NCBI RefSeq assembly: GCF_017068455.1
Contig: NZ_CP070608.1
Location: 3,081,488 to 3,145,487 of the forward strand
Reading direction: 5' to 3'
DNA: 64,000 bases
Origin: Fulvivirga lutea
GTDB lineage: Bacteria > Bacteroidota > Bacteroidia > Cytophagales > Cyclobacteriaceae
In this document: in pieces, positions 17,932 to 22,097 of the stretch
Layout of the letters: each line of letters begins with the position of its first letter
Numbering within the stretch: the stretch's first letter is position 1
Program-made: the position numbers and the translations under genes
The notes under the pieces: generated by a model
The model's database searches: none
What the model was told of the DNA's origin: nothing
The model's input: only the letters and a program-made list of their open reading frames with translations

Positions 17932-18639
17932 CTAACCGGTTGCAAGTTCATAAAAAAGGAATAATAGAATTGCCGCAATTATCAAAGCCATGATTAAATT
18001 TCCACCCATTTTGGCTTTTTGCTTAATTAATAACTTTCTGACTCTTTCTGGAACTTCTCCTTCTTTACATTTTTGCTCCCAAATAAGGTTAAAATAAGAT
18101 TTTAGAATATCCTTAGGTATGATTGCTCCATAAATCAAATCATCACCTTTTGCTAATTTATTTCTTTTCTTTCCAGTTATTTCAGTCAATTCTAAAGAAC
18201 TTCCTACACCACTTTGCCCTCCACCAAAATGTTCCAATTCTAAATATAGATTCTCATCTATTATAAATACAACTTTATAATATTCATCCGGCCATTTTTC
18301 TTCAATTGAATTATATACTTTTAATTTAACTCCGCTATTCTTTAGAAATTTCACAAATTCATCACTTCTTGCAAAAGCAATTAATTTGTCTGTTGATATT
18401 GAAAGAATATAATATGAACTTTTTTTATCAGAAGAATTGATTTTGTAAAGTGTCATATCTTCATAAGAAACCTTATGAATCATATTAATACATCCTTCAT
18501 CTGTAAATAGAAACTTCTTCTTTAACAGTCTCTGCAAACCTTTATCAGAACGCAGTTCTTGAGGAGTCACATCAAAGTTGTACTTATATAGTTTATAGTG
18601 TGTTGGTATTTTTAATATTAATAAATTTTTAATAACCAA
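17932..18639 (-). CDS. Hypothetical protein with C-terminal membrane anchor
   Basis: A 235-residue protein I do not recognise. It is mostly soluble and Lys-rich, with a single hydrophobic helix at the C-terminus (LIMALIIAAILLFLFYEL, about residues 214-231), so it is probably a tail-anchored membrane protein facing the cytoplasm. A Gly-rich FGGGQSGVGSSLEL segment lies near residue 160. No signal peptide. Its base composition is more AT-rich than its neighbours, and it lies at the edge of the repeat-rich accessory stretch, which suggests recent acquisition. The start codon is uncertain. Confidence 0.6.
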   Translation of the reverse strand: MVIKNLLILKIPTHYKLYKYNFDVTPQELRSDKGLQRLLKKKFLFTDEGCINMIHKVSYEDMTLYKINSSDKKSSYYILSISTDKLIAFARSDEFVKFLKNSGVKLKVYNSIEEKWPDEYYKVVFIIDENLYLELEHFGGGQSGVGSSLELTEITGKKRNKLAKGDDLIYGAIIPKDILKSYFNLIWEQKCKEGEVPERVRKLLIKQKAKMGGNLIMALIIAAILLFLFYELATG

Positions 18640-18787
18640 CTTACCAATCTTAACAAAACCTTCGTTTTGACTCGTTCAAACCTACATTTACATTGGTATT
18701 GCAATAATTTATGTAATTGGGCATTACCTACATTTCACAATGTAAAATCTCATTCCGATTTCAGGCATTCTTTCTTAAATATTAAGT
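18640..18787. other. Non-coding stretch before the repeat array
   Basis: Part of a 387-bp gene-free interval (18640-19026). Apart from the repeat unit and half unit listed separately, I see only AT-rich DNA and a run of related ACATTT/AATGT words; no RNA gene or promoter stands out. Confidence 0.5.
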
Positions 18788-18886
18788 GTCATGCCGACAA
18801 AAGGAGGCATCTTACTAAGTTGAGTTCGACAATTCCTAATAAGTACTTCATCCTAATTGAGGCGGATCCTTCCTGCGTCAGGATGA
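18788..18886. repeat. Hairpin repeat unit 1 (99 bp)
   Basis: Left arm begins GTCATGCCGAC and contains GGCATCTTACTAAG; right arm ends with CTGCGTCAGGATGAC, an imperfect reverse complement of the left arm. The middle has TTCGACAATTC. The same unit recurs at 19523, 19639, 19752 and 20143. Confidence 0.85.
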
Positions 18887-18901
18887 CTATTAATTTAGTA
18901 T

Positions 18902-18933
18902 GTCATGCTGACAATATGAGGCATCTTACTAAG
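18902..18933. repeat. Hairpin repeat, left arm only
   Basis: GTCATGCTGAC...GAGGCATCTTACTAAG matches the left arm of unit 1 and begins 114 bp after it. The loop and right arm are missing, so this is a truncated unit. Confidence 0.8.
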
Positions 18934-19026
18934 TTTGGTTAACAGCAGAGAATAATAACGCTCGCGATATCAAATAAGAACATTTATTAAAAAGGATAGT
19001 ATAACTTAACTAATTACCAAAGGCCA

Positions 19027-19509
19027 ATGGAAGAAGAAGACTTTATAGACCCGAAAAACCTTCCCATTTACAAAAAGGGTAAAGAAATCTTTGAGGTTGT
19101 ACATCAAATTTGTGAATTGATCCCCGATGACAACGAAATATTACAGCATACCAAAGAGCATATGCTTGCAGATGCTGCCATGTTAACTGTTAAAGTGGCT
19201 GGTGCCGAAGGTGGTGGTTTATACGACTTAAAAATGGAAAATGCTACAATCATCCGTAAAGCTGCTCGTGATTTACTAGTTCAAAATCATTCTCTTGAGG
19301 CTTTCGGGTTTAAGGAAGTTGCATATTTTCAAATAGTACGTGATCTCATCGAAGAATATCGATTGCTGTTCATCGATTGGGTCGCTGGATTTGACCAGTG
19401 GGATTATATAATTGATAGATGGGGACTGTTTAATCCTCCAGGTATTGGCCCCTTTGATAAGGATACTGACGATGATGTGCCTTTTGATCCGAATGACTTT
19501 TTAGAGTAA
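19027..19509 (+). CDS. Hypothetical acidic protein inside the repeat array
   Basis: A 160-residue soluble protein of unknown function. It is predicted mostly helical (KGKEIFEVVHQICELI, HMLADAAMLTVKVAGAEGG, ENATIIRKAARDLLVQ, IVRDLIEEYRLLFIDWVAGFD) and ends with a Pro/Asp-rich tail (PPGIGPFDKDTDDDVPFDPNDF). Codon use and a sensible start (ATG at 19027) make it a real gene. Similar short proteins seem to occur in Cytophagales, but I cannot name a family. It is flanked on both sides by copies of the hairpin repeat, with a half unit ending 93 bp before it and a full unit 14 bp after it. Confidence 0.75.
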   Translation: MEEEDFIDPKNLPIYKKGKEIFEVVHQICELIPDDNEILQHTKEHMLADAAMLTVKVAGAEGGGLYDLKMENATIIRKAARDLLVQNHSLEAFGFKEVAYFQIVRDLIEEYRLLFIDWVAGFDQWDYIIDRWGLFNPPGIGPFDKDTDDDVPFDPNDFLE

Positions 19510-19522
19510 AAGCGATTCGTTC

Positions 19523-19624
19523 GGTTATGCCAACCAAAGGAGACATCTTACTGAGTTAGGTTCGACAATTCTATTTAAGATAAACCAAACTAACTTAGGT
19601 AGATCCTTCCTTCGTCAGGATGAC
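19523..19624. repeat. Hairpin repeat unit 2 (102 bp)
   Basis: A somewhat diverged copy (left arm TTATGCCAACCAAAGG..., right arm ...TCCTTCCTTCGTCAGGATGAC). It begins 14 bp after the stop codon of the acidic protein gene and could serve as its transcription end. Confidence 0.8.
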
Positions 19625-19638
19625 TTTTAAACTAGTAC

Positions 19639-19737
19639 GTCATGCCGACAGAGGAGGCATCTTACTAAGATAGGTTCGACAAATCCATTTAGATTATTCA
19701 TCCTAATTAAGGTAGATCCTTCCTGCGTCAGGATGAC
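19639..19737. repeat. Hairpin repeat unit 3 (99 bp)
   Basis: The best preserved unit. Comparing the left arm with the reverse complement of the right arm gives 23 matches in 31. A 14-bp spacer (AGTTAATTTAGTAT) joins it to unit 4; nearly the same spacer follows unit 1. Confidence 0.85.
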
Positions 19738-19751
19738 AGTTAATTTAGTAT

Positions 19752-19837
19752 GTCATGCCGACAGAAGAGGCATCTTACTAAGATGAGCTCGACACTTCTA
19801 TTTAGATTCTTTACTCTAAATTAGTGAGACCCTTCTT
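19752..19837. repeat. Hairpin repeat unit 4, broken at the GIY-YIG gene
   Basis: The left arm is intact (GTCATGCCGACAGAAGAGGC...), but the right arm decays after GTGAGACCCTTCTT and the sequence continues directly into the GIY-YIG gene, whose ATG is 11 bp further on. Confidence 0.75.
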
Positions 19838-19848
19838 ATTTAAAGCAA

Positions 19849-20136
19849 ATGAATTACTTTGTTTATATAACCACAAACCCAAATAAATCTGCCTTCTACA
19901 CTGGAGTGACGAATGATCTTTATACTAGAATGAACGAACATTATCTCAACCGAGGCAACCAGAAGACATTTGCAGGCAGATATTACTGTTACAATCTTAT
20001 TTATTATGAAAGACATAATAATGTTGAAGATGCTATTGCAAGAGAAAAGGAAATAAAAGGTTGGAGACGAGCAAAGAAATTAATGCTGGTTCATACTACC
20101 AATCCAGGAATGAAATTCTTGAATAAGACTCTTTAA
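19849..20136 (+). CDS. Small single-domain GIY-YIG nuclease (YhbQ/UPF0213-like)
   Basis: A 95-residue protein consisting of one GIY-YIG domain: FVYITT and FYTGVTNDL give the two signature strands (GIY and YIG appear as FVY and YTG), R27 in LYTRMNEH is the conserved arginine, and AREKEIKGW contains the conserved glutamate of the active site. GIY-YIG enzymes cut DNA using one divalent metal; single-domain forms have unclear roles. There is no DNA-binding extension as in homing endonucleases. The gene is placed inside the hairpin-repeat array, between a broken unit 4 and unit 5, suggesting a functional or evolutionary link between nuclease and repeats. Confidence 0.9.
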   Translation: MNYFVYITTNPNKSAFYTGVTNDLYTRMNEHYLNRGNQKTFAGRYYCYNLIYYERHNNVEDAIAREKEIKGWRRAKKLMLVHTTNPGMKFLNKTL

Positions 20137-20142
20137 TTCATT

Positions 20143-20241
20143 GTAATGCATACAAACGGGGTATCTTACCAAATTGGTTTGACTTACTAAAATCAAATTC
20201 ACACAATGGCTTAAGAAGATCCCTCGTATCCTCAGTATGAC
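20143..20241. repeat. Hairpin repeat unit 5 (99 bp, diverged)
   Basis: Follows the GIY-YIG stop codon after 6 bp. Left arm GTAATGCATAC...GGTATCTTACC and right arm ...AGATCCCTCGTATCCTCAGTATGAC keep the pattern with more changes than units 1 and 3. Confidence 0.7.
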
Positions 20242-20256
20242 TGTTAATTTAGGATA

Positions 20257-20291
20257 GTAATGCGGAAAGCAGGAGGTATCTAATTAATTAG
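20257..20291. repeat. Hairpin repeat, diverged left arm only
   Basis: GTAATGCGGAAAGCAGGAGGTATCT resembles the left arm and begins 114 bp after the start of unit 5, keeping the array period. No right arm follows. Confidence 0.6.
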
Positions 20292-20377
20292 CTTGGTAAA
20301 CTCTCATAATCAATTGAAAAACCACTAAAGTTCAAGGACAATTTACCACTTTTGCAGCTTTGAATTAAGCTTTACCC

Positions 20378-21406
20378 ATGATCATATCAGACAGTAAAAT
20401 CACCAACATCATTACGCACTATGTTGGTAATAAATTAAAAGATGAAGGTTATTCTTTATCAGACTCAGCAAGTAGCATCTATGAAGAGTCAGAGGAATAT
20501 TATCTAAAATACTTTCTGAGTCAGTTAAAGTCAGAAGAGAAATACCGCTTCACCCACCCTACTGATCTGGAACTGAATGGCGTTTATCAGGCGGCTAAAA
20601 CAGTTTTTGAAGATCAGGAATCATTTATAGAAGTATCACACAACCTTGCCAAGCTGCTCTACTCCCACTCTGAGCATCCAAAAATTAATGAGGGAGTTCT
20701 CAATGTCGTTTTATTAGAAAACATTGCCTTCAGCGGTCAGCGTTGTGAGGCTCTTGGCATCTTTAAATCAGAAACCAATGTTCCTTTCTTAAAAGTAGAG
20801 CAAACAGATGCCAACTATGCACTCACACATGATTTGGGTTATGAACTTAACGGCCTTGATAAAGGTGCACTCATCGCTCAGCTGCCTAATGGTGAAATGG
20901 AAGTCATTGTATACGATAAAAATGGCCTACGCGGAGATTCCAAATTCTGGATAGATGATTTTCTGGGATTAGAAATCATTTCTAATGAATTCTATCAGAC
21001 CACAGAGTTAATGAAAGTCACTCGGGATTTTATTGAGAAAACTGTGCCAGAAGAATTTGAAATAACCCGCCCCGATCAGATTGATCTACTCAACCGCTCT
21101 ATGGATTACCTCAAACATGCAGAAACCTACAACCAGAATGAATATTTAGATTCAGTATTGCATGATGAGGGTCTCAAAGAATCGTTCAGAAGCTTTACCA
21201 GCAACCACATGCAGGAGATGAATGTACCTGAGAGTTTTGCTATTTCAGAGGTGGCCGTAAAGAAAATGGCCCGAACTTATAAAAGTGTTCTTAAACTGGA
21301 TAAAAACTTTCATGTGTACATCCATGGCGACAGAAACAAAATAGAGAAAGGCGTTGATGAGAACGGCCAGAAGTATTATAAGATTTATTTTGAGGAAGAA
21401 AGATAA
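20378..21406 (+). CDS. Nucleoid-associated protein, NdpA/YejK family
   Basis: A 342-residue soluble protein of the 37-kDa nucleoid-associated family (PF04245). The N-terminal wording IITHYVGNKLKDEGYSLSDS is typical of its Bacteroidota branch; the middle ENIAFSGQRCEALGIFKSE and the beta-rich KGALIAQLPNGEMEVIVYDKN...FWIDDFLGLE segment follow family order, and FHVYIHGDRNKIEKG...YYKIYFEEE closes it. E. coli YejK binds double-stranded DNA; its biological role is poorly known. It lies just downstream of the GIY-YIG/repeat array and upstream of the toxin-antitoxin pair. Confidence 0.85.
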   Translation: MIISDSKITNIITHYVGNKLKDEGYSLSDSASSIYEESEEYYLKYFLSQLKSEEKYRFTHPTDLELNGVYQAAKTVFEDQESFIEVSHNLAKLLYSHSEHPKINEGVLNVVLLENIAFSGQRCEALGIFKSETNVPFLKVEQTDANYALTHDLGYELNGLDKGALIAQLPNGEMEVIVYDKNGLRGDSKFWIDDFLGLEIISNEFYQTTELMKVTRDFIEKTVPEEFEITRPDQIDLLNRSMDYLKHAETYNQNEYLDSVLHDEGLKESFRSFTSNHMQEMNVPESFAISEVAVKKMARTYKSVLKLDKNFHVYIHGDRNKIEKGVDENGQKYYKIYFEEER

Positions 21407-21462: not shown

Positions 21463-21699
21463 ATGAATATTTCAGTCTACTTACCTGATTCACTAAAAAA
21501 TCGCTTTGACTCTTATGTCAAAAAAAAGGGGATGACAACCAATGGAGCAATACGTAAAGCTGTAGAATTACTTTTAAAACAAGAATCTAACAAAAAGTGG
21601 GGAAATTGGATAAATAAATTAGATTCGGGTGATTCAGATTTTCCAAGCATAGAGGAGATTAGAAAGGACTTAAACTCACCTAAAGAGAATCTTTTTTAA
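21463..21699 (+). CDS. Ribbon-helix-helix antitoxin (VapB-like)
   Basis: A 78-residue protein. The first 40 residues form a ribbon-helix-helix fold: strand MNISVYLPDSL, helix KNRFDSYVKKKG, turn MTTN, helix GAIRKAVELLLKQ. The rest (WGNWINKLDSGDSDFPSIEEI...) is the flexible part expected to bind and neutralise the toxin. Its stop codon shares one base with the toxin start (TAATG), giving translational coupling. It should repress its own promoter through the tandem palindromes just upstream. Confidence 0.87.
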   Translation: MNISVYLPDSLKNRFDSYVKKKGMTTNGAIRKAVELLLKQESNKKWGNWINKLDSGDSDFPSIEEIRKDLNSPKENLF

Positions 21700-22097
21700 T
21701 GGTTTATTTATTAGATACGTGCGTCATCATTGATTTTATCAAGGGTGATGCAAACACCATTTCTTCTATAAAATCAAAATCTCCGGTGGAGGTTGCCATA
21801 TCTTCTATTACGGAATTTGAATTAAGATATGGAATGGAGCAATCTACTAATACTAAATCCAAAAAGATTTTAAATGCCCTTTTGTCTGAAATAACGATTT
21901 TGGATTTTAGTTCTAAAGAGGCCGAAATAGCGGCCCAAATCAGAAATCAACTTAGGGTTTTAGGCACACCAATTGGCCCTTACGATATGCTCATTGCCGC
22001 AACATCAATTTCTAATAAACTTGTTTTAGTTACATCTAATGAAAAAGAATTCTTAAGGATTGATGGGTTGATTATTGAAAATTGGAGGCAGATATAA
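21699..22097 (+). CDS. PIN-domain ribonuclease toxin (VapC-like)
   Basis: A 132-residue PIN-domain protein. The acidic active-site residues are D6 (YLLDTCVIIDFI), E39 (SSITEFELRYG) and D96 (GPYDMLIAATS), with N114 in the VTSNEKEF position. VapC toxins are Mg2+-dependent RNases that cut tRNA or rRNA when the antitoxin is lost. The protein looks intact and full length. It is translationally coupled to the upstream antitoxin; the next gene (DUF3817) starts 5 bp after its stop codon and may be cotranscribed. Confidence 0.92.
   Translation: MVYLLDTCVIIDFIKGDANTISSIKSKSPVEVAISSITEFELRYGMEQSTNTKSKKILNALLSEITILDFSSKEAEIAAQIRNQLRVLGTPIGPYDMLIAATSISNKLVLVTSNEKEFLRIDGLIIENWRQI

Follow-up and report, generated by a model that had tools for sequence, protein, structure and literature searches.

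The array of short hairpin repeats described here from Fulvivirga lutea holds a gene for a small GIY-YIG nuclease, and the question that this locus raises is whether nuclease and repeats belong together, as the RAYT transposase and the REP/REPIN repeats do in other bacteria. The window, that is, the whole stretch of 64,000 nucleotides that was analysed, had been the subject of a preliminary description, which drew this analogy and considered the array the best candidate in it for an undescribed system.

Anatomy of the array and its nuclease gene

A unit of about 99 bp is present in the window as seven copies or remnants around a 95-aa GIY-YIG gene (Table 1). When both arms were aligned, left arms started at 18788, 18902, 19524, 19639, 19752, 20143 and 20257, and right arms terminated at 18887, 19624, 19737 and 20241. 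Because right arms were found at these four places, the array consists of four complete units, two left-arm remnants and one unit degraded on its right side at the gene, which is the composition first proposed; six of the seven proposed starts were also exact, and the remaining one, 19523, is 19524. Three of the start-to-start distances between left arms, 114, 114 and 113, likewise bear out the period of about 114 bp, and there is indeed a TTAATTTAGTAT-like spacer between units (families D1 and D5).

Table 1. Positions of the repeat units and open reading frames of the array in the window
Feature	Position	Strand	Basis or remark
Unit 1, complete	18788..18887	+	arm alignment, folding
Unit 1, left hairpin, GTC+ATGCC..GGCAT	18788-18812	+	
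Unit 1, right arm, ends ATGAC	18864-18887	+	head-to-head dimer
Unit 2, left arm alone (remnant)	18902..18949	+	arm alignment
160-aa ORF inside the array, family unknown	19027..19509	+	
Unit 3, complete, left arm diverged	19524..19624	+	arm alignment
Unit 4, complete, 99 bp	19639..19737	+	arm alignment
Unit 5, degraded in its right hairpin beside the gene start, left hairpin intact	19752..19840 (end approximate)	+	
Single-domain GIY-YIG nuclease gene, 95 aa	19849..20136	+	PF01541, E=2.4e-15
Unit 6, complete but degraded, immediately 3' of the GIY-YIG gene	20143..20241	+	
Unit 7, remnant of left arm	20257..20287	+	

A complete unit reads GTC-ATGCC...GGCAT-CT, a middle part of about 50 nt, and AGATCC...GGAT-GAC. 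With outward-facing hairpin arms at its ends, each tagged GTC, the unit forms a head-to-head dimer; all four complete units are GTC...GAC dimers of this kind. The four intact left tags are TGTC (three) and CGTC (one), each followed by AT, the four right tags are AGTC (three) and TGTC (one), and the tail after the left hairpins is CTT. By reading, the left hairpin has five perfect pairs followed by two G.A oppositions and a C-G pair, of which folding recovers the 5-bp stem only. Folding the units as DNA had been suggested as a check, and it gave the window hairpins energies modestly below those of shuffled sequences (z -0.8 to -2.6), which is weak as a proof of hairpins. The case for hairpins rests instead on the stems around related genes, where a 5-bp stem accompanies 59-67% of the tags within 400 bp of the gene versus 16-26% of the tags 600-1500 bp away. 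The 160-aa open reading frame inside the array matched nothing in Pfam or NCBIfam at E<=0.01, and no known RNA family was found in 18600-20500 at E<=1.

The nuclease gene, correctly described as encoding a single GIY-YIG domain, lies between unit 5 and unit 6. Since these two flanking units share one orientation, an arrangement of unit, gene and unit fits better than a gene inside a broken unit; the earlier view of a gene beside a broken unit holds, as the right arm of unit 5 is degraded. Residues Y6, Y17, G19, R27, H31 and E66 are invariant across 15 aligned rows and include what we take to be the catalytic positions of the GIY-YIG fold. The AlphaFold2 model of the protein is a confident single domain (pLDDT 96.9), to which the closest solved folds are 1zg2 (E=1.7e-4, the sole one at E<=0.001) and then Slx1. 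A sequence search of the PDB returned a single match at E<=0.01, BH0048 (1zg2, E=5.9e-4), a UPF0213 single-domain GIY-YIG protein that the window nuclease resembles in both sequence and fold and for which no repeat partner is listed.

Seven GIY-YIG genes are present in this genome, five of them single-domain by frame length. When their flanks were read, the window gene and two others were found between GTCA-type hairpins whose sequence is different for each gene (GTCATGCCGAC in the window, GTCATTGCGGACTTG / GTCATGCCGGACTTG at L010 and CGTCACTGCGAGGAC at L011). The fourth single-domain gene (L009) has a tagged hairpin downstream and degenerate-tag hairpins on both sides, and the fifth (L013) adjoins, by reading, an apparent tRNA end at which ARAGORN reported no tRNA. 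Elsewhere in the window, directly downstream of the gene NA37, a ribbon-helix-helix (weak match) and PIN-domain pair at 21463-22097 is likely a toxin-antitoxin module.

Dispersal and ends of the repeats

Searching the genome with one unit showed that the repeat is not unique to this locus. The first unit of the window matches 21 places in the 4.14-Mb genome, seven nearly full length and 14 partial, with five of the 21 in the window, and the motif GTCATGCYGA has 24 exact sites versus one for the reversed pattern, at least four of the 24 (L016, L018, L019 and L028) being by reading no hairpin arms. The window unit is therefore neither local nor a product of chance.

The expectation that genomes rich in units also encode the nuclease had a mixed outcome. 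Matches to the window unit were found in three of the 15 genomes of the genus: the genome that carries the window nuclease itself; G014, which carries a 67% relative but has five matches that are right-arm fragments; and G002, which has 16 matches, each to one arm and 24-37 nt long, and whose nearest nuclease relative among the matches listed is 43% identical. The close nuclease partner of the G002 repeat family may be missing or unassembled. A remnant of it was sought at two contigs by reading, and the fragment on C110 has no such hairpins beside it, while the gene on C122 is flanked by a different family. The window-type repeats of G002 (L194, L197, L199, L201, L204, L207 and L208) read as a shorter dimer and form a possible orphan family.

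Unit ends were profiled in two genomes with abundant copies. A 114-bp dimer beside a nuclease gene of G007 gave at least 41 match rows in that genome (40 of 68 candidates scored) and 16 in G008, of which 38 and 10, respectively, run end to end. Across 11 G007 loci, in which the units open with CGTC and close with GACG, the 20 nt inside each end had a base agreement of 0.96-1.0, which fell to 0.47-0.77 beyond the ends, where a right flank common to some copies accounts for the higher values. In Pumilibacter intestinalis (Bacillota), the nuclease gene (L141) has hairpins on a single side. The 109-bp dimer upstream of this gene gave 84 match rows, some of which are one place on both strands; among 17 rows, agreement was 1.0 for the outermost 10 nt, 0.63-0.68 for the following 10 and 0.41-0.55 for the sequence outside. 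The profiled units of G007 (11) and G132 (17) are GTC...GAC dimers, and the ends are exact at (C)GTC...GAC(G) in both genomes with profiled ends. Such sharp ends within flanks that differ are the mark of a unit that has been copied.

An empty site for the window array was sought through the neighbouring gene NA37, relatives of which are present in four of the 15 genomes including its own, and by reading, none of the upstream regions in the other three, one of them only about 380 bp in length, looks like an empty site. A search in G008 for the empty site of one G007 unit aligned one flank and not the other, giving no clean junction. In G007, dimers also recur every ~579 bp at C1:4913555-4918283 and 4491436-4492713, where a larger module containing the dimer may be tandemly amplified.

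Association of the hairpins with one nuclease clade

Hairpins, defined as a GTCAY tag with a 5-nt stem, were counted within 300 bp on both sides of each nuclease gene, and pairs of windows 600-1500 bp away from the gene served as controls. The genus set comprised 24 of 30 fetched loci plus L009, leaving out four loci that are broken or partial (L051, L054, L065 and L066) and two of another clade (L053 and L067). The phylum set was the best-scoring 30 of the 74 genomes with a match, among 118, with one gene per genome, and the named set, which spans several phyla, was the best 80 of at least 562 confirmed matches, reduced to 78 when L098 and L136 were dropped for short flanks and to 77, by dropping three of the 80, for the counts of tag density and of repeats across the gene. 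The sets partly share genes, as L068 and L209 are one gene and L047 and L116 another, and they include paralogues.

Proteins matching the window nuclease were found in all 15 genus genomes, some of them weakly (the best match in G006 is at 2.6e-5, and the sole match in G001 belongs to the other clade). Hairpins were present on both sides of 19/25 genus genes versus 2/88 control pairs, 28/30 phylum genes versus 0/112, and 51/78 named loci versus 4/282. On at least one side they were found at 24/25, 29/30 and 66/78 genes, the respective controls being 24/88, 18/112 and 38/282. Of the six genus loci left out, only L065 is flanked by hairpins on both sides, and L051 and L066 have them on a single side; with all six included, the genus total is 20/31 two-sided. 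The tags are concentrated near the gene, with 4-7 per kb in each orientation within 100 bp versus 0.6-1.0 per kb beyond 1 kb. Thus, the adjacency recurs in the genus, in the phylum and in other phyla, as the preliminary description had asked of a true pairing: the 51 two-sided named loci include some labelled Alphaproteobacteria (L102), Desulfobulbaceae (L118), Spartobacteria (L121), Clostridiales or Clostridia (L131 and L146), Nitrospina (L135), Verrucomicrobiia (L137) and Calditrichota (L144). The two-sided pattern is absent from 27/78 named loci, and 12/78 have no hairpin within 300 bp, including Verrucomicrobia L101, L107 and L142, of which L101 reads as a hairpin with an altered tag. Relatives of the nuclease are also encoded at 39 loci on viral contigs (L150-L188).

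The raw flanks of 24 genus loci show the gene mostly between same-direction copies of one dimer, the sequence of which varies with the nuclease type. Flanking copies aligned better as direct than as inverted repeats at 20/22 scoring genus loci, 24/25 phylum loci and 43/63 named loci. Direct repeats across the gene with a score of at least 35 were found at 32/77 named loci, and 8 of those 77 have an equally high control pair.

Two other gene families were examined by similar counts. A related GIY-YIG clade, gathered from the 118 genomes of the phylum with the single-domain protein of L053 as query, had hairpins on both sides at 2/29 usable loci and on any side at 6/29, or 3/30 and 7/30 by the measure used for Y1_Tnp genes. 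In a tree of 66 proteins, built from few columns and containing one long branch (L013), a single branch divides the two GIY-YIG sets (support 99/95, and 100% of bootstrap trees). Since the two sets were picked by query, this split shows that they are distinct and not that hairpin association defined them. The second family bears on the proposal that a Y1/RAYT tyrosine transposase mobilises the repeats, as for GTAG REPs, with the GIY-YIG gene as a passenger. Y1_Tnp proteins of the RAYT type are indeed encoded in all 15 genus genomes, and 8/29 of their loci (from the best 30) have a hairpin on at least one side, yet only 2/29 are flanked on both sides, against 19/25 genus nuclease genes by the same measure (28/30 in the phylum and 47/78 among the named loci; genus genes with a hairpin on any side, 25/25). 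Moreover, the text of Di Nocera et al. (2013, PMC3733652) states that CGTC repeats are absent from the flanks of tyrosine transposase genes. RAYT is thus unsupported as the partner of these repeats, and we regard this explanation as highly improbable. Hairpin adjacency is concentrated in the REP-linked nuclease clade, and the distance controls together with the related clade rule out a coincidental REP-rich spacer. Direct repeats across the gene fail as the sole discriminator, given the 8/77 equally high controls and the 22/27 loci of the tRNA-linked related clade that reach a score of at least 20, where the repeats have another cause.

This related clade (L274-L303, and also L067 and L013) is found at tRNA genes, with an ARAGORN tRNA in 25/30 loci versus 0/30 for the REP-linked clade. 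Gene and nearest tRNA share a strand in all 23 loci that were tested, lying within 75 bp of each other in 16 of them, and the tRNA 3' end is repeated across the gene in 17/23, above all 50 shuffles; 4 of the 17 hold more tRNA genes there. The related-clade gene appears to be a minimal element that has inserted at the 3' ends of tRNA genes. Eight GIY-YIG rows of this clade, one with a stop, follow each other about 365 bp apart at G067:C34:6982-9760, and no ARAGORN tRNA was found in the fetched locus L278.

Matching of repeats to nucleases and comparison with known systems

Arms upstream and downstream of the same gene had a mean identity of 0.92 (17/22 genes with arms on both sides; 13 identical), and arms of different nucleases within one genome had an identity of 0.57 in 22 comparisons, five of which reached 0.9 (two in G004, two in G007 and one in G013). 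Protein and repeat similarity were correlated across 115 nucleases, which remained after proteins with stops, shorter than 75 aa or identical (leaving 129) and then those without a stemmed tag had been removed (Mantel r=0.30; permuted mean 0.00, sd 0.025, with 0/2000 permutations reaching 0.30). Near-identical arms were found in 2% of the pairs at 35-45% protein identity and in 8/9 pairs above 85%, the correlation being weak (0.09) below 50% protein identity, and shared host descent is controlled only in part, through the within-genome contrast. From these sequence comparisons, each nuclease type appears to tend to go with its own repeat family.

This matching also bears on the idea that the gene is a homing-type parasite, which lands on pre-existing REPs made and spread by something else. 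Such a parasite would agree with a gene nested in arrays, with the repeats of G002 that have no close nuclease, and with the nuclease genes repeated nearby in G004 (two about 1.3 kb apart) and G008 (two 980 bp apart). However, repeat and protein sequences co-diversify, and the repeats of one genome mostly sort by nuclease, neither of which is needed of a passive landing site. We therefore consider this idea improbable.

Researchers have described CGTC REPs in Bacteroidetes, with several families per genome (Di Nocera et al. 2013, PMC3733652). According to the text of that paper, their terminal tag is unpaired and reads CGTC, or in many cases TGTC or CCTC, and their other parts are a stem of 8-9 bp that starts with A-T, a loop of 4-5 nt and a short unpaired tail, mostly CCA; the repeats are dispersed, multi-copy and extragenic, predominantly form head-to-head dimers, and "apparently lack a dedicated transposase". 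The window repeats share the unpaired GTC-containing tag, the A-T stem start, the head-to-head dimers, the Bacteroidetes host and a dispersed, multi-copy distribution (21 places). They differ in their CTT tail and in being clustered, an arrangement called rare in that text (PMC3733652), and in that a nuclease clade is associated with them here, whereas no enzyme was found for CGTC REPs as published. As the text says that "most" tails are CCA, the CTT tail lowers and does not exclude membership. Most of the text description fits, and the window repeats probably belong to, or are close to, the CGTC-tagged REP superfamily, a likeness drawn at the level of the superfamily and not of CGTC-1 to -4. 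Among the titles and abstract openings listed from open-licence literature, none links GIY-YIG to such repeats; the available text of PMC9465073 does not link the RayT and GIY-YIG genes that share one of its gene tables, and a word search of the available text of two later REP papers found CGTC in reference lists only.

The RAYT/REPIN analogy of the preliminary description is partly supported. Like RAYT with its GTAG REPs (TnpA-REP), the nuclease gene is nested among its own hairpin dimers, the dimers are dispersed and non-autonomous, and the pairing of repeat and enzyme is lineage-specific; dispersal and recurrent adjacency thus agree with it, and the co-occurrence of unit and nuclease is mixed. 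Unlike in those systems, the enzyme is a GIY-YIG nuclease and not an HUH/Y1 transposase, and the tag is GTC and not GTAG.

A second likeness is to Ssn, reportedly presented in Nature Communications in 2025, from work on transformation in Neisseria, as a family of GIY-YIG site-specific single-strand nucleases with a dispersed target called NTS and thousands of homologues, each with a repeated target. The window nuclease has in common with Ssn, as reported, the GIY-YIG fold with conserved motif residues and the dispersed repeat. We know of no treatment in the Ssn work of REPIN-like arrays, of the gene-in-repeat architecture or of the CGTC REP question. Given the reported Ssn family, our finding is not wholly new, and because the repeats also fit most of the CGTC REP description, to call the array an undescribed system was too strong.

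The same likeness suggests that the nuclease could police incoming or replicating single-stranded DNA in the manner of Ssn, with the repeats as regulatory or self/non-self marks spread by other means and the gene kept near its targets for regulation. The pairing, dispersal and clade data would suit this equally, and Ssn of Neisseria is said to bind a repeated sequence and to modulate natural transformation. However, this would not on its own account for the frequent position of the gene between direct copies of the repeat that flanks it (the 20/22, 24/25 and 43/63 loci above) or for the presence of a separate gene in each of the different repeat families, and we judge it unlikely, while giving it more weight than the other alternatives.

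We favour as the probable explanation that the window units are REPIN-like mobile repeats with the GIY-YIG gene as their dedicated partner, one of a clade of nucleases with their own repeats, for which we infer nicking and copying by repair. The nuclease would recognise the tagged hairpin in single-stranded DNA, at replication forks or in incoming DNA, and would nick it, probably as a single strand. Host recombination would then repair the nick from another copy, and in this way the dimer, and the gene nested between dimers, may be copied to new places. GIY-YIG enzymes hydrolyse DNA and, to our knowledge, are not known to join strands; the copying would therefore be homing-like rather than transposition proper. 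Ssn, as reported, would make single-strand cutting of the tagged hairpin the likely chemistry, and the finding would be a variant of the Ssn kind.

The pairing of nuclease and repeat names a candidate enzyme for CGTC REPs and provides many enzyme-target pairs, several of them in one genome, so that specificity and mobility could be tested by swapping. The pairing would also demonstrate that no transposase is needed for REPIN-like elements to arise. A broader and more tentative conjecture, which we would not put at even chances, is that single-domain GIY-YIG nucleases form a second, transposase-free REPIN route, in which each would cut its own CGTC hairpin in single-stranded form and spread the dimer and itself by repair, with the related clade acting likewise at tRNA genes as a different folded DNA target. 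If true, this would supply the missing enzyme for CGTC REPs, and both families of minimal elements that spread themselves would derive from one small nuclease fold.
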